A stretch of 64,000 nt of DNA, from assembly GCA_903906365.1 (NCBI GenBank), contig CAIVKC010000041.1, forward strand, positions 1 to 64,000, read 5' to 3'. This DNA is from an uncultured Bacteroidota bacterium. Its GTDB lineage: Bacteria; Bacteroidota; Bacteroidia; Chitinophagales; Chitinophagaceae. The position numbers and the translations under genes were made by a program. The notes under the pieces were generated by a model. The model was not told the origin of the DNA. It saw only the letters and a list, made by a program, of their open reading frames with translations, and did not search any database. Positions 46,815-63,207 of the stretch are shown here, in pieces (positions within the stretch are counted from its first letter, which is position 1; each line of letters begins with the position of its first letter).

Positions 46815-48014
46815 CTACCTTTCAAAATAACAGACATTGCCCCCCACCCATTCTTTGTCCTTGTTGTAGCGCACCCCAATCATCTTTCCCTTGCTGAGTC
46901 TGGACAGGTTGATGGCAAGCCTTGGGCGGCTTTCTTTGTCTTTCCACATATACATCATCCGGATTTCCACTTTGGCCGGGACGTCCGGTGTTACAATGGC
47001 ATCTGCGTATTTTACTTTACGCTGGAGGATCCAGTTATGGGGATCGCTGATGGCCTCGATATCGCCAGGGGTGAGGTCAATAACCACACCCTGACCCGCG
47101 AAGGAAAACAGGGGTTTCAGCACATAATTCTCCAGGTCCGGGGGCAGCTGTTTTACTTCATGCAGGAAGAAAGTGGGTGGAACATAGGGGTGGTGAATGA
47201 AGGGCAGCGTATACTTGCTGATGCGGTAAAACCAGTTAGGGTGAGGGATCCATTCCACGTCCAGCTCCTGGGTAATATCCACAAAATGACCCAGGCTGTC
47301 CTTTTGGGCATAGAGGTCATCAAAGATGATGCGGTTGTATATTCTGCTGACCCGGGTTTTCAGTCCGGTAAGTTCATTGACATAATAGAGCTTTTTTCCC
47401 TCCTGGATCAGTTCGGTAATGCATACCGGCTGGATACCCAGGTAATCCTGGGTGCAATAAAAATCGATCCTGGTCTTTTGCTGGTGCGGCTTGATTTCAA
47501 GCAGGATGACCTCTTCCACGGGTGCCTGGCCGATGATTACCTCCCGGAGGTCTTTGAGGTAGGTATCCCTGTTATACCCGTTGAGATACTGGCTGTAATT
47601 TTCCGGTATACTGAAATATTCCCGCAGCAGGTCGGGGTAAAATACCTGGAACCCAAACAGTGTTGGAAAGCCCTGCATCTCAATAAGTTGTGGCTCCAGT
47701 TCTCCTTCAGGGCCGATACAGACACCGAAATCCAGGGCGATGAAATGGGAATGGTCATTTTCCCCGGGAACACGGTCCTTGTCAGGGATGGCATTTTCAG
47801 TCAGTTTCCTGAACCCTGCGTCCGTAATGACATCTATAATCGCTTCGCAGGCCGCAATGACCTTTTGGCCGAATTCCCTGGAAATAAAGACCGGCGTTTC
47901 TGCAACCCGGAATTCAATAGCACCCGGATGGGGCTGATTGAGGGCAGTGAGAAAGGCTTCGTATTTCTCCCGGGTGAAGGATGCATTGAAGGCTTTTCTT
48001 AAGGAAGGAACCAT
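46815..48014 (-). CDS. ATP-grasp-like protein, divergent from amidotransferase gene
   Basis: Cytoplasmic protein of 399 residues. I read the C-terminal third as an ATP-grasp-like module: YVLKPLFSFAGQGVVIDL (297-314) with K300 for ATP, WILQRKVKY (328-336), VEIRMMYMW (349-357) with E350 and R352, and the metal-ligand type segment AINLSRLSKGKMIGV with N369. The N-terminal two thirds contain FIALDFGVC and QLIEMQGFPTLFGFQ, which I cannot place. The order of motifs might fit a permuted ATP-grasp fold. It would form an amide or similar bond at the cost of ATP. It is divergent from the amidotransferase-like gene, sharing 131 bases of promoter space. Confidence 0.55.
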   Translation of the reverse strand: MVPSLRKAFNASFTREKYEAFLTALNQPHPGAIEFRVAETPVFISREFGQKVIAACEAIIDVITDAGFRKLTENAIPDKDRVPGENDHSHFIALDFGVCIGPEGELEPQLIEMQGFPTLFGFQVFYPDLLREYFSIPENYSQYLNGYNRDTYLKDLREVIIGQAPVEEVILLEIKPHQQKTRIDFYCTQDYLGIQPVCITELIQEGKKLYYVNELTGLKTRVSRIYNRIIFDDLYAQKDSLGHFVDITQELDVEWIPHPNWFYRISKYTLPFIHHPYVPPTFFLHEVKQLPPDLENYVLKPLFSFAGQGVVIDLTPGDIEAISDPHNWILQRKVKYADAIVTPDVPAKVEIRMMYMWKDKESRPRLAINLSRLSKGKMIGVRYNKDKEWVGGNVCYFER

Positions 48015-48132
48015 GTAAGCAACAATTTATATGAGGAAGTTACTGAATGAATTGGTTGCGGCCAAACCGAAATGAACCGCCTGCCCGGGGCCGGGACAGA
48101 TGCCGGGGTTTTACCTTAACTCAAAAATTGAT

Positions 48133-48140
48133 TATGTTTG
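48133..48140 (+). promoter_or_regulatory. Promoter -7 element abutting the amidotransferase start
   Basis: TATGTTTG matches TAnnTTTG exactly and ends five bases before the ATG at 48146. TTTA lies 19 bases upstream. Transcription would begin at or next to the start codon, implying a leaderless message. Confidence 0.45.
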
Positions 48141-48145
48141 CAGTT

Positions 48146-48985
48146 ATGGAAAGTGGGAAAAAAATACGGGTTGCGATCCTGGATATGAATGAAGGACAGG
48201 CCAACCAGGGTATGCGGTGTCTGAGGGAGATTCTGGAACAATACCGGCTAAACCTTCAGCTGGACCTGGTCTATGATGAATTTGAGGTGCGCATCAGGCA
48301 GGAAATTCCTGATATGGGATACGATATCTACCTGTCCAGCGGCGGACCGGGCAGCCCCCTGGAAAGTGAAGGCAGTGAGTGGGAGTTAAAATATTTCCAA
48401 TGGCTTACCCACATTGAAAAATGGAACAATGACCCCGCAAGGCTCCACAAGAAATATGTATTCTTTATCTGCCACTCCTACCAGCTGGCCTGCCGGCATT
48501 ACAAAGTTGCCCATGTGACCAAGCGGCGTTCAACCGCCTTTGGCATATTCCCCATTCACCTGGTCAGGGATGGCAAGCAGGAACCAGTATTCGAGGGGTT
48601 GGCAGATCCCTTTTATGCCGTGGATAGCCGGGACTACCAGGTCATCCAGCCCAACCAGAACAGACTGAAGCAAATGGGCGCCCGGATACTGGGTATCGAA
48701 AAGGAAAGACCCCATGTAGCCCTTGAAAGGGCCATCATGACCATCCGCTTCAATGAATATATGATCGGCACCCAGTTCCATCCGGAAGCCGATGCCACCG
48801 GCATGACCATGTACCTGCAGCGGGAGGATAAGAAACAAACGGTCATCAACGGTTACGGGGAGGCCAAATGGCTCAGCATGTTAGAGCACCTCAACGATCC
48901 CGACAAGATAGGCTGGACCTATTCCCATGTGCTTCCCAATTTCCTGAACATTGCCGTGGAGCATATGCATTTGCAGCCTGTGTAA
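48146..48985 (+). CDS. Class I glutamine amidotransferase-like protein
   Basis: Protein of 279 residues with the triad class I glutamine amidotransferase fold: IYLSSGGPGSPLESEG (61-76), the nucleophile C109 in YVFFICHSYQLAC, and the GTQFHPEAD segment (208-216) with H212 and E214. The usual GxCxG around the nucleophile reads FICHSYQ, so the oxyanion region is altered while the Cys-His-Glu triad remains. It may release ammonia from glutamine for a partner, or cleave a gamma-glutamyl bond. An ATG at 48134 is possible; 48146 gives MESGKKIRVAILDMN. It is divergent from the ATP-grasp-like gene, a likely partner. Confidence 0.8.
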   Translation: MESGKKIRVAILDMNEGQANQGMRCLREILEQYRLNLQLDLVYDEFEVRIRQEIPDMGYDIYLSSGGPGSPLESEGSEWELKYFQWLTHIEKWNNDPARLHKKYVFFICHSYQLACRHYKVAHVTKRRSTAFGIFPIHLVRDGKQEPVFEGLADPFYAVDSRDYQVIQPNQNRLKQMGARILGIEKERPHVALERAIMTIRFNEYMIGTQFHPEADATGMTMYLQREDKKQTVINGYGEAKWLSMLEHLNDPDKIGWTYSHVLPNFLNIAVEHMHLQPV

Positions 48986-49275
48986 CGCTGATGTTGTCCG
49001 GTGAGGACCCCTTTAAGTAGAAAACATTTGTAGTTTAAATTCCCTAAAATATACTGATCTGTCTGACGGGCCTTTTATCCAAAGAGCCATCATGAATGAG
49101 CAGGGATCTCCTGCCTGATCCCGGGATTTGCCCAAGCCGGCGGCCCCCCCCAGGTCCCAGTGCCGGGGGAAAAGGGATGACCCGTGATATGGTCGAGCAA
49201 TTAATCACCCCACCCTTTACCCAACCAGGCCAACACTGCCCGGGACTGCTGGTATCATCCCATGGGGATTACCGG

Positions 49276-49815
49276 TCAGCGTATCATTCCATCCTCTTTT
49301 AGCTGATGGATTATTTTTTTTGCGGAGATTTCCGAAGCATGGTTTATGCCAAAATCCGAATCTGCCCTCAGGTTGGCCCGCCAGACCGGGTTTTCCTTGT
49401 CGGGAATAAAAAGCCTGATATCCAGGGTCAGGCCTGTCTCCAGTCTATTGGTAGTACTGCGGGAGCCGGAGTAAGCCCTTCTTTCAGTCTGACCGATCAA
49501 CATGACCAGGTCCGGGTGGTAGGCCTTGATTTTTTCTTCCACATCCTTTTCGGTGTCCAGGGATAGGGGGTCATAATAGTATGTAACAGCCTGTATGCCC
49601 GCTGAATCCAACGCTGCCTGCATATTGTCAGAGAGCCGTTTCATGTATTTTTGGGAGCTTCCTTTTACGGTAACATATATTTTTGAAACCGGCTGATGAA
49701 AGTCAGGGCTTTTGTTCGACTCGATTTTGGTATGAACGCAGCCGGAAACAAGCAGTGCCGCCGCGATAGCCAATGGCCCTTTGAAATAGGATGTAGTCAT
49801 AATAATGCGTTTCAT
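49276..49815 (-). CDS. Lipoprotein of unknown function
   Basis: Protein of 179 residues with a lipoprotein signal (ALLVSGC, lipid-attached C26). The mature part has KIYVTVKGSSQKYMKRLSDNMQAAL and a strand-rich C-terminus (GLTLDIRLFIPDKENPVWRA). The pattern of a flavodoxin-like alpha/beta half followed by a beta half recalls small Bacteroidota lipoproteins of unknown role. I recognise no named family. About 290 bases separate it from the amidotransferase-like gene on the other side, with nothing identifiable in between. Confidence 0.72.
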   Translation of the reverse strand: MKRIIMTTSYFKGPLAIAAALLVSGCVHTKIESNKSPDFHQPVSKIYVTVKGSSQKYMKRLSDNMQAALDSAGIQAVTYYYDPLSLDTEKDVEEKIKAYHPDLVMLIGQTERRAYSGSRSTTNRLETGLTLDIRLFIPDKENPVWRANLRADSDFGINHASEISAKKIIHQLKEDGMIR

Positions 49816-50061
49816 TTATTGGAGCATATTCCCATGATCACCCGAAAAGGAAAAGAGGATTGGACCTCTGAATCCGCTGAACATTGCGTATGCCCGGTGG
49901 TTAGCGTTTTTGCCGGACCTAAATTTAGCGCCATTTGGACGCTTGATGCCATTGGGCCCGGGCTATAACGGTTGATTAACCAAATGGAAAGGGGAAAGCC
50001 CGATTATACCTCCGCCAAGGGCTGCCATCGGATGGGATGAATCAGTAAGAGCCCTCAGGTA

Positions 50062-50946
50062 CTAGGAATTGATATCCACCATGGCGTAAAAATCTTCCTT
50101 GAAACTGTCGCCTACCGGTATGATTTTCTTGTCAATATAAATTTCGTTTCTGGCTATGGAGTCAATATGGCTGATGGAAACAATATAGGAGCGGTGTACG
50201 CGGATGAATTCCTCCGGGGGAAGTTTGGAGGCAAAGAGTTTGAGGTTATTGAGGGTCAGAATGGGTTCGGTCCTTCCTTTCAGGTAAACCTGGGTATAGT
50301 CTTTCATCCCTTCACAAAAAAGGATGTCCTCGAATTTTACCTTGATAATTTTGTATTCTGATTTGACGAAGATGAACTTATTGCTTTTTGCGTGATGGCT
50401 GTCTGCCGGAGTACTGAGGTGGTCCTTGATTCGGTTGACGACCAACAGAAAATGATCAAAGGAAAGCGGCCTGCCCAAAAAACTGAAAACGTCCTGGTCA
50501 AATTCCTTTTTTTCCAGTTCCGCCCGGGAGGATATGCAAATGATCAATGGGGAAAAACCCGCTTCCCGCAAAACCCGGATACTGTCGGATTCCATTACGC
50601 GTATATCCCAGAAAACAATGTCCACTTTTTGCAGGGAAGCCTGCTGGATAATTTCCAGGGCTGATTCGAACTTTCCCGCCAGGTGTAGTTTGGGCGTTTT
50701 GTTGATATAGTCCCGCAGGGAGGCCAGCGGCCTGTTTTTGGGTTCGGCGATCAGGCAATGGAGCAATCCGGAAGCCGCGGGCAGGGCCTTGACGTGATGT
50801 TTGCGGGAAGCATGCACAGCAGGCGGATGGTCCCGGGACGTCTTATGCTTGAATACTTTTTCCCTCCCGGAAGCGGCCGCATCAGGAATGGTTCCTTGAA
50901 CAGGACCTCTTAGGTGCTTGAGCAGGTTTGCTGACGGGGTTTTCAT
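50062..50946 (-). CDS. LytTR-type transcription regulator with degenerate receiver domain
   Basis: DNA-binding regulator of 294 residues. An unusual basic N-terminal tail of about 60 residues precedes a receiver-like domain (62-175). The acidic pair expected after the first strand is replaced by A67-E68-P69. The phospho-acceptor position keeps D114 (FWDIRV), and the conserved Lys-Pro near the end is G158-R159-P160. Phosphorylation is therefore doubtful. The LytTR domain (about 190-292) is complete, with KFEDILFCEGMKDYTQVYL and FIRVHRSYIVSISHID. No LytS-type kinase gene is adjacent. It may respond to a ligand or partner protein. The gene lies 25 bases downstream of an outer-membrane barrel gene. 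Confidence 0.85.
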   Translation of the reverse strand: MKTPSANLLKHLRGPVQGTIPDAAASGREKVFKHKTSRDHPPAVHASRKHHVKALPAASGLLHCLIAEPKNRPLASLRDYINKTPKLHLAGKFESALEIIQQASLQKVDIVFWDIRVMESDSIRVLREAGFSPLIICISSRAELEKKEFDQDVFSFLGRPLSFDHFLLVVNRIKDHLSTPADSHHAKSNKFIFVKSEYKIIKVKFEDILFCEGMKDYTQVYLKGRTEPILTLNNLKLFASKLPPEEFIRVHRSYIVSISHIDSIARNEIYIDKKIIPVGDSFKEDFYAMVDINS

Positions 50947-50971
50947 GATGCAATTCGTATCTGTTCAGAAT

Positions 50972-52222
50972 CTAGTTGTATCTAACCTTGCTCGTGTTCC
51001 ATATGTCACGATAGGAAATGGAGAAAGTGATGCTGGCATATTTCTCCTGGATAATCTGGGGGGAGGGCGTTCCTCTCACCCCGTACTGTACACTGATGGT
51101 ATAGGAAAGCAGATTCCGCTTGGAATTGATGCCCATCCCCAGGGTCCCGCCTATATCTTTGATCTGCTGGCCGTAGGATTTCAGATACAGGTAAGTCTGG
51201 TTGTAATAGAAACCGGCATGGAAAAATTTGGATTCCACCAGGGTATTGTAGTAATTCTTCTTTTTGGAAAATTCAAACCCCGCTGAAAAACGGTTACTGT
51301 TCTGCAGGGAGTAATTGTTGTAATCCGTATAATGAAGGGAGGACCAGTCCTGGTGCTTGAAATCAGCCAGGAAAGAATAGCGTTTGTCCCTGGTCACAGA
51401 GATCCCCAGGCCAAAAGAGGTGGGTATGGTAAAATATTTTTCCGCAATGGTCTCTCCGTTTACAGGGTAGAGGATGATAGAATCCGCTCCCCGGATGATC
51501 AGGGTACTCCTGGACAGCAGGTTGGTCCTGGCCGAATAAGTGCCTCCGATGGCAAAATCCCATCTCCTGCCTACGCGCCCGTAATACTGCAGACCATATT
51601 CGAGTAATCCGTTGGTGATATTTACTTTATTATCCTGGGAATAAAGTTCGCTGCCGTTGGCGTCCAGGCTGAATTTTTTTTGCTGGAGGGTGCCAAACAG
51701 GTAGGAAGCGTTGAGTCCGATGGAGAGGTGATGGAAGAATTCATAGGAATTACCCCAATAAACCCGGTTTACCCCGCCGTTTCCCTTGTAATAATCATTT
51801 CCCAGGGTGGCATCGGTGGCGGTAAATTCATAATTCTGGGTACTGAAAGGAACAAGACCCGCCGAGCTGCCCCAGTGGTTGGTAATCTTTGTGCCGACAA
51901 TTATTTTTTTGAAGGTGATGTCGGAGGACTGGTTATTGCTTAAGTCTACTCCCGTGCCGTAATAATTCATGACGGTACCCCTTATGCCGATTTCTGCGTT
52001 GAAGAGTTTGTTGGTCAGGGCACTGTAGGAGGCCGGGTTATTGTTGATCAGGAAGTTGTTGTTGCGGTAGGCAATGCCTGTATTGGCCATTCCGGAGGTA
52101 CGGTTGAAATAGCTGTCCTCGATGTCACCAATGCCCAAAATCGAATAGGGCGAATTATTTGACTGCGCAAATAGTGGCAAAGAGGACACCGTCAGCAGGA
52201 AGACACTCAGAAATAGTTTCAT
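50972..52222 (-). CDS. Outer-membrane beta-barrel protein of unknown function
   Basis: Protein of 416 residues with a signal peptide ending at about residue 20 (LPLFAQ-SNN). The mature N-terminus SPYSILGIGDIEDSYFNRTSGM is typical of a Bacteroidota outer-membrane family related to FadL/OmpP1 transporters. The rest alternates in a 10-14-strand barrel pattern, ending in a strand (ASITFSISYRDIWNTS). The transported compound is unknown. It lies 32 bases downstream of the DUF4270 gene on the same strand and 25 bases upstream of the LytTR gene, so the three may be one operon. Confidence 0.78.
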   Translation of the reverse strand: MKLFLSVFLLTVSSLPLFAQSNNSPYSILGIGDIEDSYFNRTSGMANTGIAYRNNNFLINNNPASYSALTNKLFNAEIGIRGTVMNYYGTGVDLSNNQSSDITFKKIIVGTKITNHWGSSAGLVPFSTQNYEFTATDATLGNDYYKGNGGVNRVYWGNSYEFFHHLSIGLNASYLFGTLQQKKFSLDANGSELYSQDNKVNITNGLLEYGLQYYGRVGRRWDFAIGGTYSARTNLLSRSTLIIRGADSIILYPVNGETIAEKYFTIPTSFGLGISVTRDKRYSFLADFKHQDWSSLHYTDYNNYSLQNSNRFSAGFEFSKKKNYYNTLVESKFFHAGFYYNQTYLYLKSYGQQIKDIGGTLGMGINSKRNLLSYTISVQYGVRGTPSPQIIQEKYASITFSISYRDIWNTSKVRYN

Positions 52223-52254
52223 TTATAAAATTTTACCATACCGTTTTTTGTTTT

Positions 52255-53652
52255 TTAACGGGGTAGGGATATATAATAGATAATCAACTTGGAACTGAAA
52301 TTCTTGTTTGTTTTATCTCCCAGAACCGCCCGGTTGAATGTCGTGTAGTTGGCGGGGCTCGGTATATTTAAAATCAATCCGTATTGGTTGGTCGGGATCG
52401 TCAGAAGCTCCTTGATATAATTGGTTACATCATAGGAGTACTGGGTGTTCTGTCCGGTGATATAATCGGTGATCAGGTTGCCGTACTGAATCTGGCCCGA
52501 AAGGGTCAGGGGGGCGCCGATCCCGTTATTGAGGTCGGTCTGGGAGGCGATCAGCTGCTTGGGCAGGGCCAGCAGGGGACTGTATGATCCCGGCTCCGGC
52601 TTTAAGATAAGCTGGGCCTTGAGTACCCCCACGAAGTCCGAGCGCTGGCTTAAGGTAAACACGGAAGGAAAATTAACTTTGGCCTGCAATCCCGACATAG
52701 ACTGGACATAGGCCGCGTGGTTGGTCAGGCCCGCAGGCACTTCGGTGGGGACATTGGGGTTTTTCCTATCCTGCTGAAACTGGGCCATCACCGAAAGGGG
52801 GGTACCCGTGCGGTCGATGGTGATCTGGTTAAAGGCTGTGGTGGCATTATTGATCGGAAAACTCACATTCACATAGCGGAAGGAAGCCCCCGGTTCATGG
52901 TAAACCAGCCGCAGGTAGACACTGTCCTTAAAACCAAAGATGACCCCCTTGCTGCTGTTGTCGGCATACAGACAGAGGCCTTTGAAATAATTGAGGAAGG
53001 CTGTATTATTGTTAACGATCTCAGACTTTACGTACAGAAGGTTCAGCAGGGACTTCCCCAGGGAATCCGGCAATCGGATCTGAATGGAGTCCTTGGTGGC
53101 GATACTGCTGGTAATCAATGCGGTTGGTTTAATGGTTACATCAGTAAAACCCAGCGGGGTGGGATTATAGGGGAAGTTGGTGTTATTATAAAAGGTTCGG
53201 GGAAGCGGGGGCAGGGGGAGCTGGTAATTGGTGTCCAGCTGGCTCACCATGATGTGCTGGGGTATAAGGGTATCTCCGTAATAGCTTTTATTAATCCGCA
53301 TGATCAGCGAAATGGAATCAAAAACGGCAAAAATACTAACCTGGGGTACCGAACTGGGTTTGGAGATCTGCAGAAAGGACCGGGAAGTGATATCCCCGAA
53401 ATAGGGATCCTTATAGGAACCTATCAGGATATTTCCCGTACCGGCGGTAGGGAAAGAATCCAGCAGCACCGTAGACAGATTGGTACTGAAGGTGTCAACA
53501 TATATGATGTTGGTATTGTTGTTGCTGACGAAGTTATTGGTATTAAGGTTGATATTGGGTTTGTCGCAGCCGGTAAACAGGGTCCCCGCCAGGGCTGTCA
53601 CTAACAGAAAGAGGCTGAACTTATTGCGCTGGTTATTCCTTTTCTCACTCAT
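52255..53652 (-). CDS. DUF4270 family lipoprotein
   Basis: Surface-type lipoprotein of 465 residues with lipobox FTGC (C29). The domain DUF4270 covers nearly all of the mature protein; landmarks are LLDSFPTAGTGNILIGSYKDPYFG near residue 64 and the C-terminal NYIKELLTIPTNQYGLILNI and AVLGDKTNKNFSSKLIIYY segments. It appears beta-rich. No function is established for the family as far as I know. It is divergent from a Kelch lipoprotein gene followed by DUF4907, a grouping I recall in other Bacteroidota. Confidence 0.88.
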   Translation of the reverse strand: MSEKRNNQRNKFSLFLLVTALAGTLFTGCDKPNINLNTNNFVSNNNTNIIYVDTFSTNLSTVLLDSFPTAGTGNILIGSYKDPYFGDITSRSFLQISKPSSVPQVSIFAVFDSISLIMRINKSYYGDTLIPQHIMVSQLDTNYQLPLPPLPRTFYNNTNFPYNPTPLGFTDVTIKPTALITSSIATKDSIQIRLPDSLGKSLLNLLYVKSEIVNNNTAFLNYFKGLCLYADNSSKGVIFGFKDSVYLRLVYHEPGASFRYVNVSFPINNATTAFNQITIDRTGTPLSVMAQFQQDRKNPNVPTEVPAGLTNHAAYVQSMSGLQAKVNFPSVFTLSQRSDFVGVLKAQLILKPEPGSYSPLLALPKQLIASQTDLNNGIGAPLTLSGQIQYGNLITDYITGQNTQYSYDVTNYIKELLTIPTNQYGLILNIPSPANYTTFNRAVLGDKTNKNFSSKLIIYYISLPR

Positions 53653-54046
53653 TAGCTGGCTTATTTCTAAATATTGATTTTCAAAATATTCTGACTCCCC
53701 GACCCATTATTGGCTGCAATAATAAGGGGTGCAACTGTTACTGTTTTGTTAGTATGTATAAGATTGTAAAAAAAAACGACAAATGTTTGAAATTTACCTA
53801 CCAACCAAAATGGTAAATTATCAAAATAGCCGCATTTAAACTTACAAAAGCTTAGTTTACTGTATTTTCTGCGCGAAAATAGCATACTTTCGCCAAAAGG
53901 AACATGGCAGAACGGATAAAGTTTATGTTAAAGATTATTTAGTCTATAAAATAAGCTATTTTGTAGTTTAATAATGCCGGAAAATACATTTTAACGATTT
54001 TGCTAGAGTGCCATAAAATACATTAGCGGAAAATATCGAAAAAATT
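53653..54046. other. AT-rich divergent promoter region
   Basis: 394 bases between the DUF4270 and Kelch genes, clearly richer in A and T than the genes. It should contain promoters for both directions. A plus-strand TACTTTCG at 53885-53892 is a weak -7 candidate. No open frame or hairpin worth naming was found. Confidence 0.45.
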
Positions 54047-55165
54047 ATGACTCGTTTTCACATTTCACTGTTGTCATTCGCAGCATTCTCTGTGGTTTTA
54101 TTTTCCTGTGGTAAAACTACCATTCCTGGCACCCAGGATGGAAACTGGTATAGAGAAGTGCCTCCTTTTCAGGGGCCTGCCCGGTCGCACGCCGTTTCGT
54201 TTGTGATTAATCAGGACGGCAATGGCAACGGTACCACAGCCTATGTGGGTACAGGTGTAGACAATTTCAATACAAAATACAACGACTTTTACCAGGCTAC
54301 CCCGACTTCGGACAGCTCCATTACCTGGACCCAGGTAACCAATATGCCCGGGGTTGGCAGAACCGATGCCGTGGCTTTTTCCGTGGGCAATAAGGGATAT
54401 GTGGGACTTGGACAGGATTCCGCCACCAATGTCCTCCGTGATTTTTACCAGTATGATTCCACCTCCAACAGCTGGACCCGGATTGCTGACTTTGCCGGCA
54501 ACGCCCGTTATCTGGCAGTTGGTTTCGGCATCCAGAATTTCGGCTATGTAGGCACTGGCTATGACGGAAGGTTCTACTACGGTGATTTCTGGAAATACGA
54601 TCCAACCTCAGGCAACTGGGAAGCAGCCCCCTCCTTTAAAGGGAACAAGCGGGCCTCTGCGGTAGCTTTTGTATACGGCAACAGGGCCTTTGTGGTGACC
54701 GGTATCGGTGAAAACGGCAGTCCGGTTAACGATTTCTATGTATACAGCCCCAATGCGGTGACAGTCACTACCATCAGTGGAACTTTCAACCAGACGGCTG
54801 AATCCTGGCTGAGGCTCAATCCCATTGCCAACATCAATACAGCCACTTTTGATGACGGGTACAGCAATATCATGCGTTCGCAGGCTGTGGCCTTTGTCAT
54901 GACCGGCGTGCAGACGGGAATAACCGGAACTGGCGGTGCCAAGGCATTCCTGACCTGCGGAACAGCCGGCAGTTCTACCTGGGAATATGATATCGCCAGG
55001 GACCTCTGGACCACCAGGACGGCTTTCGAATCTGCTTCCGTCAATTATGGGGTTGCATTTACCATCGAGAACCGCGGCTTTGTTACCACCGGTCTGGCCG
55101 GTGGAACGGGGGTGAGCGGAACCTCAGAATTCTTCCCTGACCAGGTTTACAACTCATTGGATTAA
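54047..55165 (+). CDS. Kelch-repeat lipoprotein
   Basis: Lipoprotein of 372 residues (lipobox LFSC, C21). The mature part is a beta-propeller made of Kelch-type repeats of about 50 residues, each with a Gly-rich strand and a W or F-Y pair: FYQYDSTSNSWTRI, FWKYDPTSGNWEAA, WEYDIARDLWTT. Five or six blades are visible. Such propellers bind proteins or sugars; here it likely sits on the outer membrane or in the periplasm. DUF4270 is encoded divergently and DUF4907 follows after six bases, which points to a joint role. Confidence 0.88.
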   Translation: MTRFHISLLSFAAFSVVLFSCGKTTIPGTQDGNWYREVPPFQGPARSHAVSFVINQDGNGNGTTAYVGTGVDNFNTKYNDFYQATPTSDSSITWTQVTNMPGVGRTDAVAFSVGNKGYVGLGQDSATNVLRDFYQYDSTSNSWTRIADFAGNARYLAVGFGIQNFGYVGTGYDGRFYYGDFWKYDPTSGNWEAAPSFKGNKRASAVAFVYGNRAFVVTGIGENGSPVNDFYVYSPNAVTVTTISGTFNQTAESWLRLNPIANINTATFDDGYSNIMRSQAVAFVMTGVQTGITGTGGAKAFLTCGTAGSSTWEYDIARDLWTTRTAFESASVNYGVAFTIENRGFVTTGLAGGTGVSGTSEFFPDQVYNSLD

Positions 55166-55171
55166 AGTTTA

Positions 55172-55549
55172 ATGTATAAACGGCTTTTTTTTGTGGGAAT
55201 GGCGGTCATACTGGCCGTATATTACCTGTTTTTCATCACCCAGCAGCGTCGGGAATTCATCAGCTCCCAGCTGGAAAAAGGCAATGTTTTCATCCAGGTC
55301 CTCCCCGTGCAGGGCCCCTTGGGATGGGGATATGACGTGATGGTCAACGGGAAAAAATATATACACCAGCCATTTATTCCTGCCATCAACGGCAGGAGGG
55401 GTTTTGAAAACGAGCAGGAGGCCCTGCTGGTCGGTAACCGGGTGGTTGCGAATATGACAGGAAAGAGAGCCTCACCCGCCGTGCACGTGAAAGACCTCCT
55501 GGAGCTGGGTATTCCCCTCAAAGAGTCAGACACCGTGGTTATAAAATGA
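55172..55549 (+). CDS. DUF4907 family protein
   Basis: Membrane-anchored or exported protein of 125 residues: one N-terminal hydrophobic helix (about 5-23) followed by a soluble domain with VQGPLGWGYDVMVNGKKYIH, QPFIPAINGRRGF and EAEALLVG-like segments. I recognise the DUF4907 family, which is small and of unknown function. It follows the Kelch lipoprotein gene by six bases on the same strand, so they are almost certainly cotranscribed. A strong two-way terminator closes the unit. Confidence 0.82.
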   Translation: MYKRLFFVGMAVILAVYYLFFITQQRREFISSQLEKGNVFIQVLPVQGPLGWGYDVMVNGKKYIHQPFIPAINGRRGFENEQEALLVGNRVVANMTGKRASPAVHVKDLLELGIPLKESDTVVIK

Positions 55550-55563
55550 TATTTTTTGCACTT

Positions 55564-55599
55564 AATCAAAAACCGCAGGACTCCCTGCGGTTTTTGATT
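55564..55599. terminator. Bidirectional intrinsic terminator
   Basis: A perfect 16-base stem (55564-55579 with 55584-55599, core CCGCAGG/CCTGCGG) encloses a four-base loop. A-runs and T-runs lie inside the stem, so it can work for the DUF4907 unit on the plus strand and for the carboxylate-amine ligase gene on the minus strand. Confidence 0.88.
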
Positions 55600-55644
55600 T
55601 AATAAGGTTTGGCGCCTTTGGCTTTTAGTTCCCCGCGGGTTGCA

Positions 55645-56757
55645 CTAGATTCCGTGGAGGAACTGGTCGTGGATATAATCCACCACAGCAGGAAGGCTGC
55701 CGGTCTGTTCAAATATTCTTAACTGGCGATCCGCCCCGGTCCCATTTTCCAGCATGGTGCTGACATAGCTGGTGGCATGGCGGCTGCCCAGCTGGTCGAC
55801 CACATCATCAATAAAATCGAGTAACTCGTAGATCAGCACACGCGTATTGACCTCCTCTTCCTTGCCAAAATCTATCAGATGGCCATCGATCCCGTAACGG
55901 CTGGCCCTCCATTTGTTTTCATTGATCAGGGCCCGCTGGTACATCATGAAGTTGAGGTTCTGGGACCTGAGCTTGTAAATCTTGACGCAGATGGCCTGGA
56001 ACAGGGCTGCAATGCAGATGGTTTCCTGCACCGTAAGGGGCACGTCGCAGATGCGGAATTCCACGGTGTTGAAAAAGGGATGCACCCGCAGGTCCCACCA
56101 GATCTTTTTGGCATTATCAATGCAGTTGGTCTTTACCAGGAGCTTGACATAATTTTCATAGGCCTCGATGCTTTCGAAATATTCGGGGATTCCGGTACGC
56201 GGAAACTTATCGAAGACCTTGGTGCGGTAGGATTTATACCCTGTTTTTCTGCCCTCCCAGAATGGGGAATTGGTACTGAGTGCATAAATATGGGGCAGGA
56301 AGTAACGGGTGGAATTGGCAATGTGGTTGGCCATTTCCCGGCTTTCCATACCGACATGCACATGCAGTCCGAATATCAGGTTACTTCTTGCCGCCTCCTG
56401 CAGTTCGTTGACGATTTCATTGTACCGCACGTGGTCGGTAATCAACTGACTTTCCCAGTGGCTGAAGGGGTGCGTTCCGGAGGCGCCCATCCAGAAGCCC
56501 AGGGAATCTGCAATTCCTGAAATGGTCTTACGGAGCAGGGCGACATCCTTAAAAGCCTCATCAATATTCTGGCAGATGTCCGTGCCCACTTCCACTACGG
56601 CCTGATGCATCTCGGCCTTCACTTTGTCTTTGATGATTTTTTGGCCCTCCTGAACAATCTTCTGCTCATGGCTCTTCAGTTCCCGGCTAGCCGGATCGAT
56701 TACCATATACTCTTCCTCTACCCCCAGCGTAAAATGTTTGTAACTGATATTTGCCAT
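55645..56757 (-). CDS. Carboxylate-amine ligase (YbdK / GCS2 family)
   Basis: ATP-dependent ligase of the glutamate-cysteine ligase 2 family, 370 residues. The defining GVEEEY sits at 12-17, HVHVG near 131-135, and DLRVHPFFNTVEFRICDVP in the middle third, all of which carry metal and ATP ligands. E. coli YbdK has only weak glutamate-cysteine ligase activity, so the real substrates of such proteins are unclear. Here an ATP-grasp gene lies 76 bases upstream and an esterase gene further upstream on the same strand, which favours a small biosynthetic unit over plain glutathione synthesis. Confidence 0.9.
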   Translation of the reverse strand: MANISYKHFTLGVEEEYMVIDPASRELKSHEQKIVQEGQKIIKDKVKAEMHQAVVEVGTDICQNIDEAFKDVALLRKTISGIADSLGFWMGASGTHPFSHWESQLITDHVRYNEIVNELQEAARSNLIFGLHVHVGMESREMANHIANSTRYFLPHIYALSTNSPFWEGRKTGYKSYRTKVFDKFPRTGIPEYFESIEAYENYVKLLVKTNCIDNAKKIWWDLRVHPFFNTVEFRICDVPLTVQETICIAALFQAICVKIYKLRSQNLNFMMYQRALINENKWRASRYGIDGHLIDFGKEEEVNTRVLIYELLDFIDDVVDQLGSRHATSYVSTMLENGTGADRQLRIFEQTGSLPAVVDYIHDQFLHGI

Positions 56758-56833
56758 GGTTTATTTGGTTATAACGGGTTGATAGTAATGCCGGCCGGCC
56801 GAATTCGCTGATTGGCAGCCGGATCAGCCTGAT

Positions 56834-57787
56834 TTAGATCAGGGCCTGCCTCGAAGAGCTGCGTTTGATGTATTCCCCCCAGGTCAGGTTATCTGACCCG
56901 TCCTGGTGCGCCTGCGCCCTTTCAATGGCATAGTTGGCCGCCGTCTCCACCACCCAGTTAAAATTTTCCTCCCCGACGCTGGTCTTTTCGGCATCCGGAG
57001 CCGGGTTGCAAAAATCAATGGCATAGGGAACCCCGTCACGAAGGGCCAGTTCTACGGTATTGAAATCGTAACCGAGGTATTGGTTAATGCGCAGCACTAT
57101 CTGCTCCATCTGGTGCAGCCTTTCAGGGGAAGGTGAAAAGTTGCTGGCATAGCGAAGGTGGTGGGGGTTGCGGGGCTCATAAGGCATGATGCGTGTGTAT
57201 TTTCCGCCGATGCAGTAACATCTGTAATATTCATCAAAAATAATCTCTTCCTGGAGCATCATGACAAGCTCCCCTGTTTCTGCGTGCTTCTGGAAAAAAT
57301 CATCGGCACTGTTGAGTTTATAGACATGCTTCCATCCGCCTCCGGCGAAAGGTTTCATATAGGCCGGAAATCCGATATAGTGGAAAATGCTTTCCCAGTC
57401 AAGGGGAAAGGCGAGGTTGGAAAAGGACTGGTCGTTGGTATCCGCCGGCAGGTCCCTGGAAGGAAGGATGACGGTCTTGGGAACCGGCACGTCAATCTTT
57501 GTGGCCAGGCAGTTGTTGAAAAACTTTTCATCGGCACTCCACCAGAACGGGTTGTTGATGACCGCTGTTCCGCAAAGGGCGGCATTTTTCAGGAAAGCAC
57601 GGTAAAAAGGCACATCCTGTGAAATACGGTCAATGATGACTGAGTAACCGCTCGATTCACCCTGGACCACTTTATCGATCCGAACGGGCTCTGCCGTGAT
57701 TCCGGGAATATTTTTGCTGTTAATCCTTTCTACAAATGCCATCGGGAAACTTCTTTCCTGCCCGAACAGAATACCGATCTTTTTCAT
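56834..57787 (-). CDS. RimK/GshB-like ATP-grasp ligase
   Basis: ATP-dependent carboxylate-amine or carboxylate-thiol ligase of 317 residues. ATP-grasp features visible are KFFNNCLATKIDVPVPKT (start of the central domain), AYMKPFAGGGWKHVYKL (142-158) with K145 and the Gly-rich loop, LMLQEEIIF-like segment at 176-184, and the metal site TVELALRDGVPYAIDFCNP (244-262) with E246, D258 and N261. Together with the neighbouring GCS2-type ligase it could add two building blocks in turn, as the two glutathione enzymes do. Its substrate is not known. The order on the minus strand is esterase, ATP-grasp, ligase. Confidence 0.87.
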   Translation of the reverse strand: MKKIGILFGQERSFPMAFVERINSKNIPGITAEPVRIDKVVQGESSGYSVIIDRISQDVPFYRAFLKNAALCGTAVINNPFWWSADEKFFNNCLATKIDVPVPKTVILPSRDLPADTNDQSFSNLAFPLDWESIFHYIGFPAYMKPFAGGGWKHVYKLNSADDFFQKHAETGELVMMLQEEIIFDEYYRCYCIGGKYTRIMPYEPRNPHHLRYASNFSPSPERLHQMEQIVLRINQYLGYDFNTVELALRDGVPYAIDFCNPAPDAEKTSVGEENFNWVVETAANYAIERAQAHQDGSDNLTWGEYIKRSSSRQALI

Positions 57788-57879
57788 GATTGAATGTTTA
57801 TCTCAAACCCTGTGGGTCCGAGCTTATTATTAAATGGATTTGAGCTAAGCTGTTTTTTTCTTGTCTTATTCCAAAGGAT

Positions 57880-58599
57880 CTACACGCTTACCATCCGTGA
57901 CAGGTAATGGGGGAACATTTCCCTCCAAACGGGCCAGTCATGGGTCGCATTTGGCCGGATATCAAGCCAGTGGCTGATTTCTTTGGCAGCCAGGATGCCC
58001 GAGAGTCTTTTATTATCCTCCAGGCAGAGGTCGTGTTCTGCCGTTCCCAGGACAATTCCCATATTCCAAAGTTCCGGATCATTTGCCCCCGGGATGAAAT
58101 CAACAGGGTTATTGTAATAGACATTGTCATCATAATAGCCCTCCAGGAACTGTCTGACATCGAAGGCGCCGCTCATCGAAAAACAATAACTGGTGAGACC
58201 GGGATGCCGGAAAGAAAAATTGACGGCATGGTAGCCGCCAAAACTGCACCCTGCCGCGGCCATTTTTGAATATCCGGTTTCGTGGCGGGCCCAGGGAACA
58301 ATTTCATCCTTGATCAGCCTGTCATAGCAGGTGTGGTTATAGGCCCGCACGGAAGGGGCCACGCTTTTATTATACCAGCTGTCCGCATCGATGGAGTCAG
58401 GGCAATAGATCTTAACAAGCCCATTTTCCAGGAACCATTGGGCCGCTTCAATGAGACCCTGGTCCTTGTTCTGGTAAAAAGACCCCTTGGAAGTGGGGAA
58501 AAGAATAACCGGCTGCCCGGCATGTCCGAAAACGAGCATTTCAAAATCCCTGCCGATGCTTGGGGAATGCCACCTGTGATATTGTTCCTGAATACTCAT
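57880..58599 (-). CDS. Esterase D / PHB-depolymerase-like serine hydrolase
   Basis: Alpha/beta hydrolase of 239 residues, cytoplasmic by lack of a signal peptide. The nucleophile S119 lies in AAGCSFGGYHA, the acid D190 in GTAEHDLCLEDN and the histidine H220 in NATHDWPVW, forming a complete triad in the usual order. The protein belongs to the esterase family related to EsD and Fes. It is the first gene of a minus-strand unit with the ATP-grasp and GCS2-type ligases, and is divergent from a second esterase gene. A clear promoter precedes it. Probable role: hydrolysis of an ester or peptide-like product of the cluster. Confidence 0.86.
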   Translation of the reverse strand: MSIQEQYHRWHSPSIGRDFEMLVFGHAGQPVILFPTSKGSFYQNKDQGLIEAAQWFLENGLVKIYCPDSIDADSWYNKSVAPSVRAYNHTCYDRLIKDEIVPWARHETGYSKMAAAGCSFGGYHAVNFSFRHPGLTSYCFSMSGAFDVRQFLEGYYDDNVYYNNPVDFIPGANDPELWNMGIVLGTAEHDLCLEDNKRLSGILAAKEISHWLDIRPNATHDWPVWREMFPHYLSRMVSV

Positions 58600-58619
58600 G
58601 GGAGAATGGATGCTTCAAT

Positions 58620-58651
58620 CAAATTTATTTTTAAAACAACAATAAACCAAA
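58620..58651 (-). promoter_or_regulatory. Bacteroidota-type promoter for the esterase/ligase unit
   Basis: On the minus strand TTTG (58651-58648), a 20-base spacer and TAAATTTG (58627-58620) match both promoter elements exactly. The ATG at 58599 is 20 bases beyond the -7 box. Confidence 0.6.
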
Positions 58652-58757
58652 TCAATATTACAGCGCTGCCCGGCTCCCCTTGGGCGGGGAAGACCAAAAA
58701 AACCGGCAGGCATGTCCCGGGTACCCTCTGGCCTTTTCTGGTTTATTTGTATTTCCC

Positions 58758-58765
58758 TATTTTTG
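58758..58765 (+). promoter_or_regulatory. Promoter -7 element abutting the second esterase start
   Basis: TATTTTTG fits TAnnTTTG and ends five bases before the ATG at 58771, the same spacing as at the amidotransferase gene. TTTC lies about 19 bases upstream. A leaderless message is predicted. Confidence 0.45.
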
Positions 58766-58770
58766 ACCTT

Positions 58771-59589
58771 ATGGAATTTAGAAGCGGCCAGGGAGTGATA
58801 AAGGAGCATACCAGGTTTCAATCGGCATTACTGGGGCGTCCGGTGGACATAGATTTTTATTTACCCACCCATGTGCCAGATCCTGCAGCAATGAGTCTGC
58901 TGTTGATTAATGATGGACAGGATCTGGAAAAGCTGGGCCTGCTGGGGATGCTGGAGGGATTATATAGTCATCACCACATCAGCCCCCTGCTTTGTGTAGG
59001 CATTCATGCGGGCCGGGAAAGGAAGATGGAATACGGAACGGCCCGGGTAGCGGACTACAAGGGGAGGGGTGCCAAGGCGCAGTTATACACGGATTTTATA
59101 TTCTCAGAACTGCTCCCCTTCATCCACACCCGTTTCCGGATAGAGCGGTTTCGGGAAAAGGCTTTCGCCGGCTTTTCCATGGGCGGGCTCAGCGCGGCGG
59201 ACATTGTTTGGAACCAGGCCCATGAATTCACGAAAGTGGGGGTTTTCTCTGGCTCCCTGTGGTGGCGAACCAGGGACAAAAATGACCTGGAATATTCCGA
59301 CGACACCGACCGCATCATGCATCAGCAGATCAAAAACGGCACCTACCGCCCATGGCTGAAATTCTTTTTTGAATGCGGGACCGCCGATGAAGAGGCCGAC
59401 CGTAACCACAACGGCATCATTGATTCCATTGACGATACCATGGACCTGATGCATGAACTGGTGCAAAAAGGCTATAGCCGGGAAAAGGATATCGAATACC
59501 TGGAAATCGAAGCCGGAAAACATGATGTGGCTACCTGGGCCAGGGCCATGCCCGTATTTCTCCGCTGGGGCTGGGGGAGGTCAAAATAA
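58771..59589 (+). CDS. Esterase family alpha/beta hydrolase
   Basis: Serine hydrolase of 272 residues without a signal peptide. Visible motifs are SLLLINDGQDLEKLG (Fes-type second strand), the nucleophile in FAGFSMGGLSAADIV, FFFECGTADEEADRN with the likely acid, and EAGKHDVATWARAMP with the catalytic histidine. It is related to enterochelin-esterase and PHB-depolymerase-like proteins but has no iron-siderophore context here. The frame extends far upstream, across the promoter region; the ATG at 58771 starts at the first protein-like sequence. It is divergent from the other esterase and ends at a two-way terminator. Confidence 0.85.
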   Translation: MEFRSGQGVIKEHTRFQSALLGRPVDIDFYLPTHVPDPAAMSLLLINDGQDLEKLGLLGMLEGLYSHHHISPLLCVGIHAGRERKMEYGTARVADYKGRGAKAQLYTDFIFSELLPFIHTRFRIERFREKAFAGFSMGGLSAADIVWNQAHEFTKVGVFSGSLWWRTRDKNDLEYSDDTDRIMHQQIKNGTYRPWLKFFFECGTADEEADRNHNGIIDSIDDTMDLMHELVQKGYSREKDIEYLEIEAGKHDVATWARAMPVFLRWGWGRSK

Positions 59590-59667: not shown

Positions 59668-62600
59668 TCAATTGAATAAATAACGTATTCCGATCTGGCC
59701 CTGCCAGTGGGACAGCGGATTGCTCACGTCATCCCGGTAGGCATTGGTATAAGGGGTCTGCGTTCCTGATACCTTGAAGGGGAAGGAGTAGGTGGGTGTT
59801 CCATTGACCATACCTTCAAAATTCAGGGGCGAAAGGGTAGAGAAAGTCTTGTAGACTCCCCAGTTGTTGCTCAGGAGGTTGCCCGCATTGAGGATATCGA
59901 AAGTAACTTTCAGGGTATGTTTGTTTTTGTTCTTGGAGCCTGAATAGAAGTAGATTTCCTCCGTTACATTGAAATCAAACCGGCTGAAGAAGGGAAGCAC
60001 TGCAGCATTCCGTTCAGCGTAGCTGCCGCGGTGTTTGCTTAAATAGTGATCCGAACTGATGAAAGCATCCAGCTGGCTCCAGATCTGGTCGGTAGTCCGG
60101 GGATCTTTCACCGGGTTATTACCGACGGGTACCAGGGCGATCTCTCCTTCATTTCTTGGGATATACATCAGCGTGAAATTACTGCTGCCGGTATTGACGT
60201 TGGTCGGGTCGCCGTTATAGGTATAGGAACCCACGCCTGCCGGCGCTGCTTCATAGATAACACCCACCGAGGTGGCAAAATACCTGGCATACTCCTTCCT
60301 GTAAAAGGCTGAAGCTATGATGCGGTGCGGCTGGTAGAAATTGGAATAGCCCAGTTCCGGGGAATTGGGGTCGCCGATCGTGGGGCGGCTGTTCCAGTTG
60401 GTTTGTGCAATGGAACCGCCGTCATTGATGGTCTTGGACTTGCTGTAGGTATAGGCAAGGTTCAGGTATATGTTTTTGAAATTCTTCTGTAACTGCAGGG
60501 TGGCTGTGTAGGCATACCCCTTGCCGTAATTTTTCATCAGGATGGCGTTGCTGATATTGGGGTTGGAGACGCTGGAGCCTCCCTGCCCGCGGTTGAGCTG
60601 ATTATAATCCCAGCGATAACGGTTGTCTGCCCCGTTGAACTGGACCAGTCCGGTATCGGGGAGATTCACATTTTCAAAATTCACCGCGTTGATATCCTTG
60701 GAATAGGTCAGCTCCAGGGTACCCACGACGCCCCAGGGCAATTTCTGGTCAACAGCCACGCTGCTTTTGAGCACCTGCGGGTATTTGAATTTAGGATCGG
60801 TAAACACGAGGTTATAGGAAGTATTGGCGGCTCCTGCCGTCGGGCGATATTTGTTGATGTCCGGGCTGAAAACCACCGGGGCCGTTGCGGGAGAACCCAG
60901 CGGACCCTGAACAAAGGAACCGAACTGCACCCCGTTATTACTGGCCTGGTTTGATATCCATACGAAGGGAGGAGGGCCTGCAAAGAGTCCTGCCCCGCCG
61001 CGAACCTGGGTGGTATGGTCTCCCTTCACATCCCAGTTGAATCCCACCCGGGGAGAGTACAGCGGATTGGTATTGGGTTTCTGCCCGGTGCTGTATTTTT
61101 TCCCGTCACGCCAGGTCAGGGCGTCGGCGTAGGGATTGTCCTGGAACTGGCTTTGGAATACGGGGACGTCAATGCGTAATCCGTAGGTCAGGGTGAAATT
61201 CTCCTGTACCCGCCATTTATCCTGGGCAAAAAATCCCAGTTCATAAACTCCTATTTTGGCATAGGGGAAGGATCCGTCTGAAGTGGCAGCATACTGCAGG
61301 TTATAGCGGACTGCGGTGGCTGCGCCGTTGATGGCACTGTTGTAAAAGTCCGTCAGGGTATTGAAGCGGTATACACCTTCATAATTGGGCGCAAAACCGT
61401 TCTTGAACTTTTTATAATAATCCTGCGTGCCGAAGGAGAGCTCATGACTGCCTTTGTAAACCGTAAAGATATCAGAGAGCTGGTAGATATCGGTGTTAAG
61501 CAGGTTGTGGTAAGTAAATGGTTCATATCCGAATGCAGTATAGGACTGCTTGGATCCGTTCATAATATCCACCAGGGGGAAATCGCCGGTGGCCTGGCTG
61601 GAGCGGAAATCCCGCAGGGCTGAATAACCCACCTGCAGTTTGTTGTTTGATTTATTGCTGAACCGTGTGTTGAGCTCGGCAATGAGGATGTTAAAATTAT
61701 TATTAATTGTATAGCCGCTGCCGCTGAAAGGCAGCCCTGTCAGGCTGGGCTGACGACCGCCGCTGGGGGATCCGCTGTTGGAGGCGGCGATATCCCTTAA
61801 GGATTTCAGGTAATTGTATTTGATGGTAAAGGTATTGCGGTCATCGATATTCCAGTCGATTTTGGCGGTAATCTTGTCGGATTGCGTCCGGTAGGAATAT
61901 CCCTGGAATTCTCCGGGATTATAATTATAGGTTTTGATCAAAAACTGCTTGAGGGCATTGAGGGTATCTGCATTGGCTGCAGATACATTAGAGCCGTTGG
62001 CCGGATTGCTGGCACTGGAAGCGACCAGACTGGTAGCCGGGTCCTTTCTGCGCTCCTGCTCATAGCTGATGAAGAAAAAGACTTTGTTGGGGATCAGGGC
62101 GCCTCCGAGGTTGGCCCCCCACTGATTATAGTTATAAGTCTGGTGTGGCAGCGTATTTCCGTCCACGTTATACCCCTGCAGGCCGGGGGTCTTGATATAG
62201 GTATAGACAGAACCCTTGTACTGGTTGGTACCACTGCGGGTCACCGAGTTGATGCCTGCGCCGGAGAAACCACCCTGACGCACATCGTATGGGGAGACAT
62301 TGACCTGGATCTGTTCAATGGCATCCAGGCTGATGGGCTGGGAATTGGTTTGCCCGCCCAGGGTTCCTGACAGACCAAACGCGTTGTTGAAATTGGCGCC
62401 GTCTACAGTCAGGTTGTTGTAGGCACTGCTTCTTCCCCCGAAGCTGAGCCCGTTGGCACTGGGGTCCAGCCGGGTGAAATCCTGCAGGGAACGGTTCAGG
62501 GTGGGCAGCCTGTCAATCTGCGCCCGGTTAATGACTTCCTGGCTTCCGTTGTGGCCGTTGTTGAAGACCTTGTCCTGCCGGCTGGAAGTAACCACTACTT

Positions 62601-62943: not shown

Positions 62944-63207
62944 AATCAAAAGGTTTTTGGTTTGCAAAGAAACAATTAATCTCAAGATCAAAATCAGTGA
63001 AAATCATTATGAAATTATGAACACATGGCAGACAGCCGGTACAGACCTGTACGTTGGGAAGCAAAAGGAAATAAGGGGAAATAATTACACGAGAAAATTA
63101 TTTCTTTTATTTCAGCAGTTTAAAATTGGTACGAATAAATTATATAATTAATTACTAATGTTTATTAGTGCAAATCATCAAATCAGGGTCCTGATAAAAA
63201 ATCTCAA

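Follow-up and report, generated by a model that had tools for sequence, protein, structure and literature searches.

We describe here a six-gene cassette from an uncultured bacterium of the Chitinophagaceae, found in the first 64,000 nucleotides of contig CAIVKC010000041.1 (assembly GCA_903906365.1), the whole of which is called the window below. The genes, named A to F, lie within 46.8-59.6 kb and specify a predicted ATP-grasp ligase (A), a cysteine hydrolase of the class I glutamine amidotransferase (GATase) fold (B), a GCS2-type carboxylate-amine ligase (C), a second, divergent candidate ATP-grasp (D) and two esterases (E and F). Comparison across genomes indicates that they form a conserved and modular amide-ligase system whose trimming enzyme can be exchanged, and the best reading of it is a pathway that makes a small peptide-like metabolite. 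The genes belong together and D is their constant member; an M29-type metallopeptidase (M) can fill the slot of B, and a permuted-ATP-grasp-like protein (X) can fill the slot of A and C. An earlier note, made from the sequence alone, had listed these six genes within 12.8 kb, with ligase C, ATP-grasp D and esterase E on one strand and F divergent from them, and all are present on the strands it gave. It had also proposed a link between the two halves of the locus, A-B and C-F, which are separated by 6.7 kb carrying six other genes.

This link was examined in 149 genomes drawn from the class, each searched with every cassette protein. D matched in 23 genomes; one match of 34% identity (G035) was set aside, leaving 22, and in G119 D was seen over 140 residues only. 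B was found in the same 22 genomes, A in 21 (not in G118), C in 20 (not in G001 and G142), a close E (E-value under 1e-50) in 18 and F in 16, which makes E and F the less constant members of the cassette. At the thresholds used, none of these five proteins was found in the 149 genomes outside the 22 that hold D. At the looser threshold of 1e-30, E matched in 26 of the 149 genomes; the genomes added hold weaker relatives (30-39% identity), and four of the 26 fall outside the 22, all four from a single family (f44). Hypergeometric p values for co-occurrence with D ran from 1.0e-19 (E) to 8.9e-27 (B); the genomes are not independent and shared descent inflates these values, and the conclusion of co-membership does not rest on them alone. 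A-B-C-D-E are contiguous within 3 kb in 12 of the 22 genomes, with F divergent in eight of those, and eight of the 20 loci that were fetched hold all six genes, A-B-C-D-E on one strand and F divergent. Members are present even where they are unlinked: A lies 3.2 Mb from D in G110, and members sit on other contigs in G022, G066 and G129. No other gene, among the 45 largest clusters of neighbouring open reading frames (ORFs, 90 amino acids or more), recurs in more than three of the 19 loci of the class that lie beyond the window's family. Because the members co-occur in nearly all D genomes, also where unlinked, and are contiguous in more than half of them, the two halves are supported as one functional set, as the earlier note had supposed; the lack of co-occurrence that it had named as grounds for refutation was looked for here and not seen.

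A draw of 296 genomes from the phylum, with a D threshold of E <= 1e-60, placed D in 108 of them. We analysed 97 D loci that had not been fetched earlier, one per genome. They comprise 22 A-B-C-D loci, in which E and F may be present or absent, 15 X-D loci, where the same holds for B and E, 12 A-C-D(-E), four A-M-C-D(-E), two A-B-D-E, 30 with D alone and 12 with other parts. B occurs in 70 of the 296 genomes, 69 of which have D. M occurs in six, all with D and none with B, and the chance of all six landing in the set with D but without B is 3.7e-6. In four loci M lies between A and C, the same slot as B, and in G379 it abuts C. The M proteins of those four loci (L141, L144, L148 and L150) resemble M29 aminopeptidases by PF02073 (53-65 bits, cut-off 27), with six invariant residues that we take to be the M29 metal ligands; they are set apart by their length of 339-342 amino acids, the lack of any NCBIfam match, and close relatives confined to D genomes in the 296-genome draw. 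X falls short of the cut-offs of two Pfam families (28.8 of 32 and 19.8 of 23.1 bits). It occupies the slot of A and C: no X locus carries A or C, all 15 X genomes hold B, and X forms one clade of the D tree. Among the 40 loci with A, the genomes of 38 hold B or M, with B elsewhere in the genome in ten.

Near the 30 loci with D alone, a metallophosphoesterase-like gene was seen nine times, a histidine ammonia-lyase gene eight times and a PanB-like gene seven times; Pfam named only the lyase of L137. In eight loci (L137, L142, L163, L165, L167, L169, L177 and L190) D stands in a shared block with the histidine ammonia-lyase-like and metallophosphoesterase-like genes. These neighbours look like the shared synteny of one lineage and were set aside as partners. 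A mobile plasmid cassette was rejected as well, as D had no match among 72,556 plasmid records.

The operon is no longer intact in the window's own family. When GTDB genomes were scanned with the D alignment, at least 597 stretches matched, at least 571 of them encoding a relative, and the best 80 were analysed; these loci are assigned mostly to Chitinophagaceae, Chitinophagales, genera of Chitinophagaceae, or plain Bacteroidetes. In them, F is found beside D in 79 and C in 77, and within the flanks A in 13, B in 15 and E in five, with E matches overlapping F dropped and many loci ending at contig ends. One locus (L083) has the window's order, B-LytTR-BamG-BamH-kelch-DUF4907-C-D-E-F; there B shares the strand of D, but in the window it is inverted. 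The window holds a broken-up version of the A-B-C-D-E operon, split by a block of other genes and with B inverted, while the gene set was kept. In the clustering of neighbouring ORFs, a TonB-dependent receptor recurs in 46 loci of the family and a RibB-like gene in 37; neither was counted towards the cassette, as both are absent from all 19 loci sampled from the rest of the class. A relative of the large TonB-dependent receptor that follows F in the window was seen in 48 of the 80 loci, usually right beside F.

The earlier note had labelled B an amidotransferase, a label that needs revision, although B does exceed the PF00117 cut-off (32.6 bits vs 22.8). It remains below the homoserine succinyltransferase models (PF04204, 20 of 27 bits; TIGR01001, 22.4 of 495), and a MetA acyltransferase was rejected on that account. 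With the predicted model of B (predicted local distance difference test, pLDDT, 91.6), Foldseek returned SMU.1228c, plant gamma-glutamyl peptidase 1, tm1158, MetA and DnfC at E 1.5e-12 to 8e-12, and 119 matches at E <= 0.001 in total. Since the matches include gamma-glutamyl peptidase 1 as well as true amidotransferases and MetA, the modelled fold alone cannot separate peptidase from amidotransferase. The Cys/His/Glu triad is invariant in 55 of 55 members, as is the nucleophile motif I/V-C-H/Y-S, which reads I-C-H-S in the window. A G-x-C-x-G nucleophile elbow is usual in class I amidotransferases, and B does not have it. B thus shares fold and triad with gamma-glutamyl peptidase 1, other GATase-fold enzymes and MetA, and differs from them in its I-C-H-S motif, in an identity of about 15-17% in the best matches and in not reaching the MetA models. 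As to function, peptidase is a likelier role for B than that of an amidotransferase supplying ammonia, because other lineages have an M29 metallopeptidase at its place between A and C, and the two are never found together. Two unrelated enzymes in one slot would hardly both be ammonia suppliers, and a peptidase role suits both; in vivo, B would act as a peptidase.

C is a GCS2 ligase (PF04107, 195 bits) of the YbdK type, with 526.3 bits to PRK13515 (cut-off 371) and 296 bits to TIGR02050 (cut-off 176.4). It is a nearly full-length relative of YbdK 1r8g (E 1.7e-63), from which it differs in lying on the PRK13515 branch and in being part of a fixed cassette. The earlier note had counted it as a refutation if the GCS2 protein were a plain glutathione enzyme; C is not one, falling far below the glutathione models TIGR02048 (53.5 of 249 bits) and TIGR01436 (19.9 of 463).

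D found no family in the Pfam search. The earlier description of it as RimK/GshB-like agrees with weak LysX/RimK matches, but the scores are far under the cut-offs (TIGR02144, 22 of 275.6 bits; TIGR00768, 18.9 of 143.4), so the label is a loose one. Biotin carboxylase and D-Ala ligase profiles also match weakly, at E about 0.003. K145 and D258 are conserved in 118 of 118 sequences, and E246 and N261 in 117 of 118; we take the lysine to be the ATP lysine and the other three to be Mg ligands. Together with the weak matches, the conservation of these residues points to a divergent ATP-grasp. Many class-level relatives of D have basic C-terminal tails (L027, L032, L028, L029, L034, L035, L040 and L043), with six AT-hook-like cores in L027, 11 in L032 and histone-H1-like K/A/P tails elsewhere. 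A strict basic-tail filter was passed by three of 19 D proteins and by none of the 257 other ORFs of those loci; a looser filter was passed by ten of 97 D proteins, the core end being recognised in just 39. The D of the window is tail-less, and none of 78 D proteins from its family's loci has more than 28 residues past the core.

A likewise lacks a Pfam family match in the Pfam search, and its sole match by sequence is YgiC at E 0.42. Its AlphaFold2 model (pLDDT 90.7) gave 27 Foldseek matches at E <= 0.001, every one of the GSS/GspS type: yeast glutathione synthase (1m0w, E 7.5e-14), YgiC (2.4e-12), Cp1B (1.4e-10) and glutathionylspermidine synthases are among them. By its predicted structure, A is an ATP-grasp of the GSS/GspS/YgiC fold. 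In the sections of PMC12568646 drawn on here, Cp1B is a proven amino-acid ligase that couples epoxysuccinate to amino acids, and YgiC/YjfC are termed peptidylpolyamine synthetases. A resembles YgiC/YjfC, glutathione synthase and Cp1B in fold, enzymes whose ATP-driven reactions couple an acid with an amino acid or with a polyamine; it differs from them in belonging to no Pfam family and in an identity of 10-16% in the fold matches.

E and F both pass the PF00756 cut-off of 22, with 34.2 and 81.2 bits, and the nucleophile serine of G-x-S-x-G is invariant in 16 members of E and ten of F. E is nearest to bacterial esterases; F is nearest to enterochelin-type, IroE-like and ferulic acid esterases, and its profile matches include S-formylglutathione hydrolases. 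A D-R-N-x-N-G-x-I-D-x-I-D-D stretch is strongly conserved in F, most of its positions being invariant in ten members, and presumably resembles an EF-hand-type calcium loop.

The features of the locus are collected in the table. E, D and C follow one another in the same direction, 92 and 76 bases apart. The start of F had been put at 58282, a position that falls within E on the opposite strand, and has been corrected to about 58771. A strong promoter had also been claimed for the ligase strand. The pattern TTTG-N20-TAAATTTG, which we take to be the Bacteroidota promoter consensus, does occur about 20 nt ahead of the E start, but its count in the window is not much above chance (two matches vs 0.81 expected; two or more in 21 of 100 shuffles), so that the position of the site is telling and the match count is not.

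Features of the cassette locus (window coordinates)
Feature	Coordinates	Strand	Assignment	Basis
A	46815..48014	-	predicted GSS/GspS/YgiC-fold ATP-grasp ligase, 399 aa	AlphaFold2 model, Foldseek, 16-member alignment
B	48146..48985 (start ATG 48146 or 48134)	+	class I GATase-fold cysteine hydrolase, probable peptidase	PF00117, model, Foldseek, triad
C	55645..56757	-	GCS2 / YbdK-type carboxylate-amine ligase, 370 aa	Pfam, NCBIfam, 1r8g
D	56834..57787	-	putative divergent ATP-grasp, 317 aa, constant member of system	weak profile matches, conserved residues
E	57880..58599	-	PF00756 esterase, 239 aa	
F	58771..59589 (start about 58771)	+	PF00756 Fes/IroE-like esterase, about 272 aa, divergent from E	
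Promoter-like TTTG-N20-TAAATTTG	58620..58651	-	upstream of E-D-C	
Intervening block, six genes	49276..55549		lipoprotein-like ORF, LytTR protein, BamG, BamH-like, kelch protein, DUF4907	

Within the intervening block, the LytTR-domain protein adjoins BamG (299.5 bits) and the BamH-like gene (window 50062-53652), outer-membrane assembly accessories; the BamH-like gene scores 27.9 of 420 bits, the match being confined to its N-terminal part. A Kelch/N-acetylneuraminate-epimerase-like protein is followed by the DUF4907 protein (window 54047-55549), a pair that is also found together in L083. A large TonB-dependent receptor lies downstream of F (window 59668-62991).

It is fairly probable, in our judgement, that the six genes encode a single pathway of the cytosol, in which a small amide-linked, peptide-like metabolite is assembled and trimmed. 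In such a pathway, C would turn glutamate, at its gamma-carboxylate, or another acid into an acyl phosphate and join an amine to it, and the ATP-grasps D and A would attach further amino acid or amine units, A perhaps in a step of the glutathione-synthase or peptidyl-polyamine-synthetase type. B, as a Cys-His-Glu hydrolase, would cut a peptide or isopeptide linkage and in doing so probably take off a residue, either gamma-glutamyl or N-terminal, and the serine esterases E and F would work on the product itself or on a side form. The substrates, the order of steps and the cytosolic location are inferred. More tentatively, the cassette may represent a widespread, unnamed Bacteroidota pathway in which stand-alone ligases build a peptide on a temporary gamma-glutamyl (or similar) handle and a dedicated peptidase removes it, this peptidase having been exchanged between the Cys-hydrolase B and M29, apparently more than once, and the product being a widely kept metabolite; we would give this fuller version rather less than an even chance.

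A number of observations weigh against the reading as one pathway. That there would be one product at all is drawn from co-occurrence, and many of the fold matches of B are true amidotransferases. C is absent from two D genomes of the class (G001 and G142), is missing in G308 and is absent from the G200 and G288 loci, while in G284 B adjoins C in a genome with no D match. The trimming enzyme is likewise missing in places: 33 of the 108 D genomes are without both B and M, and G149 and G153 carry A-C-D without either. As C lies elsewhere in 24 of the 29 solo-D genomes tested (34 of 42 of all genomes tested), a simpler C+D core without these peptidases probably exists. The exchange with M rests on six genomes, in one of which (G338) M is unlinked; given M within D genomes, the avoidance of B has a p value of 0.0017. 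The M label requires at least two changes on well-supported branches of the D tree, and these may be a pair of gains or one gain followed by one loss; G379, although it has M, did not carry the label there. The substitution by X, finally, holds at the locus only, as a C relative (359-471 bits) lies elsewhere in three of the six X genomes tested.

One alternative makes B a genuine glutamine amidotransferase, which would hydrolyse glutamine and pass the ammonia to one of the ligases, the product being a primary amide. The PF00117 score, the intact Cys/His/Glu triad and fold matches to tm1158, DnfC and the glutaminase parts of aminodeoxychorismate, CTP and GMP synthases all suit it, but other lineages have an M29 metallopeptidase in that operon slot, I-C-H-S flanks stand in place of the elbow named above, and B lies elsewhere in ten genomes with an A locus; we regard it as unlikely. 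The set might instead modify proteins or nucleoid-bound targets, D adding amino acids in the manner of RimK and B or M, with E and F, erasing the marks. The basic, lysine-rich or AT-hook-like tails of many class-level D relatives, unmatched among the other ORFs of their loci, and the weak RimK/LysX likeness of D speak for such a role, although few D proteins pass the strict filter, the D of the window and its family are without such tails, and no substrate protein of 90 amino acids or more recurs near the loci. This seems to us rather improbable.

A glutathione-like pathway for a low-molecular-weight thiol would cast C as GshA, A as GSS, B as a gamma-glutamyl peptidase as in plant glutathione turnover, and E and F as thioester hydrolases. 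C does align weakly with plant glutamate-cysteine ligase (E 2e-4), the best fold match of A is yeast glutathione synthase, B matches gamma-glutamyl peptidase 1, and F has the S-formylglutathione hydrolase matches; yet C is YbdK-like and far under TIGR02048 and TIGR01436, and D and X are left unexplained. Moreover, BshC of bacillithiol synthesis is found in 22 of 22 cassette genomes, a weak test as it is found in 140 of 149, and by the same token a replacement for bacillithiol is not supported. We consider a thiol pathway quite doubtful. It is hardly credible that these are unrelated housekeeping genes, neighbours by chance or general synteny: the separation of the two halves in the window would fit that idea, but the genes are contiguous in 12 of 22 genomes, co-present nearly always, absent elsewhere at the thresholds used and swapped gene by gene in place, and class co-occurrence and the phylum module swaps refute a chance cluster. 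As for anti-phage defence, the six proteins had no PADLOC match at E <= 0.01.

The general kind of system to which we assign the cassette, a metabolite pathway of ligases and trimming enzymes, has been described before. Iyer et al. 2009 reportedly set out amidoligase neighbourhoods in which ATP-grasp and glutamine-synthetase-like (GCS2) ligases stand with peptidases and hydrolases in predicted peptide-metabolite operons, a combination that the cassette shares. In the portion of PMC2588565 consulted, a GCS2-sized ligase gene adjoins a GATase-like thiol peptidase in proteobacteria or a gamma-glutamyl cyclotransferase in firmicutes, which resembles the cassette in pairing a ligase with an exchangeable trimming enzyme; that ligase family is other than GCS2 proper, and the same portion gives it no ATP-grasp, M29 or esterase partner. 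Graspetide loci, as far as the relevant parts of PMC8939145 go, share with the cassette ATP-grasp ligases in Bacteroidota clusters and, in some, alpha/beta hydrolases; the cassette differs in that no precursor-peptide gene was recognised among ORFs of 90 amino acids or more. Among the open-access titles listed, none was recognised as describing the cassette, which cannot prove novelty; both the exchange with M29 and the variant with X may be new.

That the operon has been split while the gene set was retained in the window's family argues for function. With D in 108 of 296 phylum genomes, the cassette would be a common pathway, and two of its ligase families have no Pfam match. The exchange of B for M29, in turn, makes of a vague amidotransferase annotation a testable claim of a peptidase.

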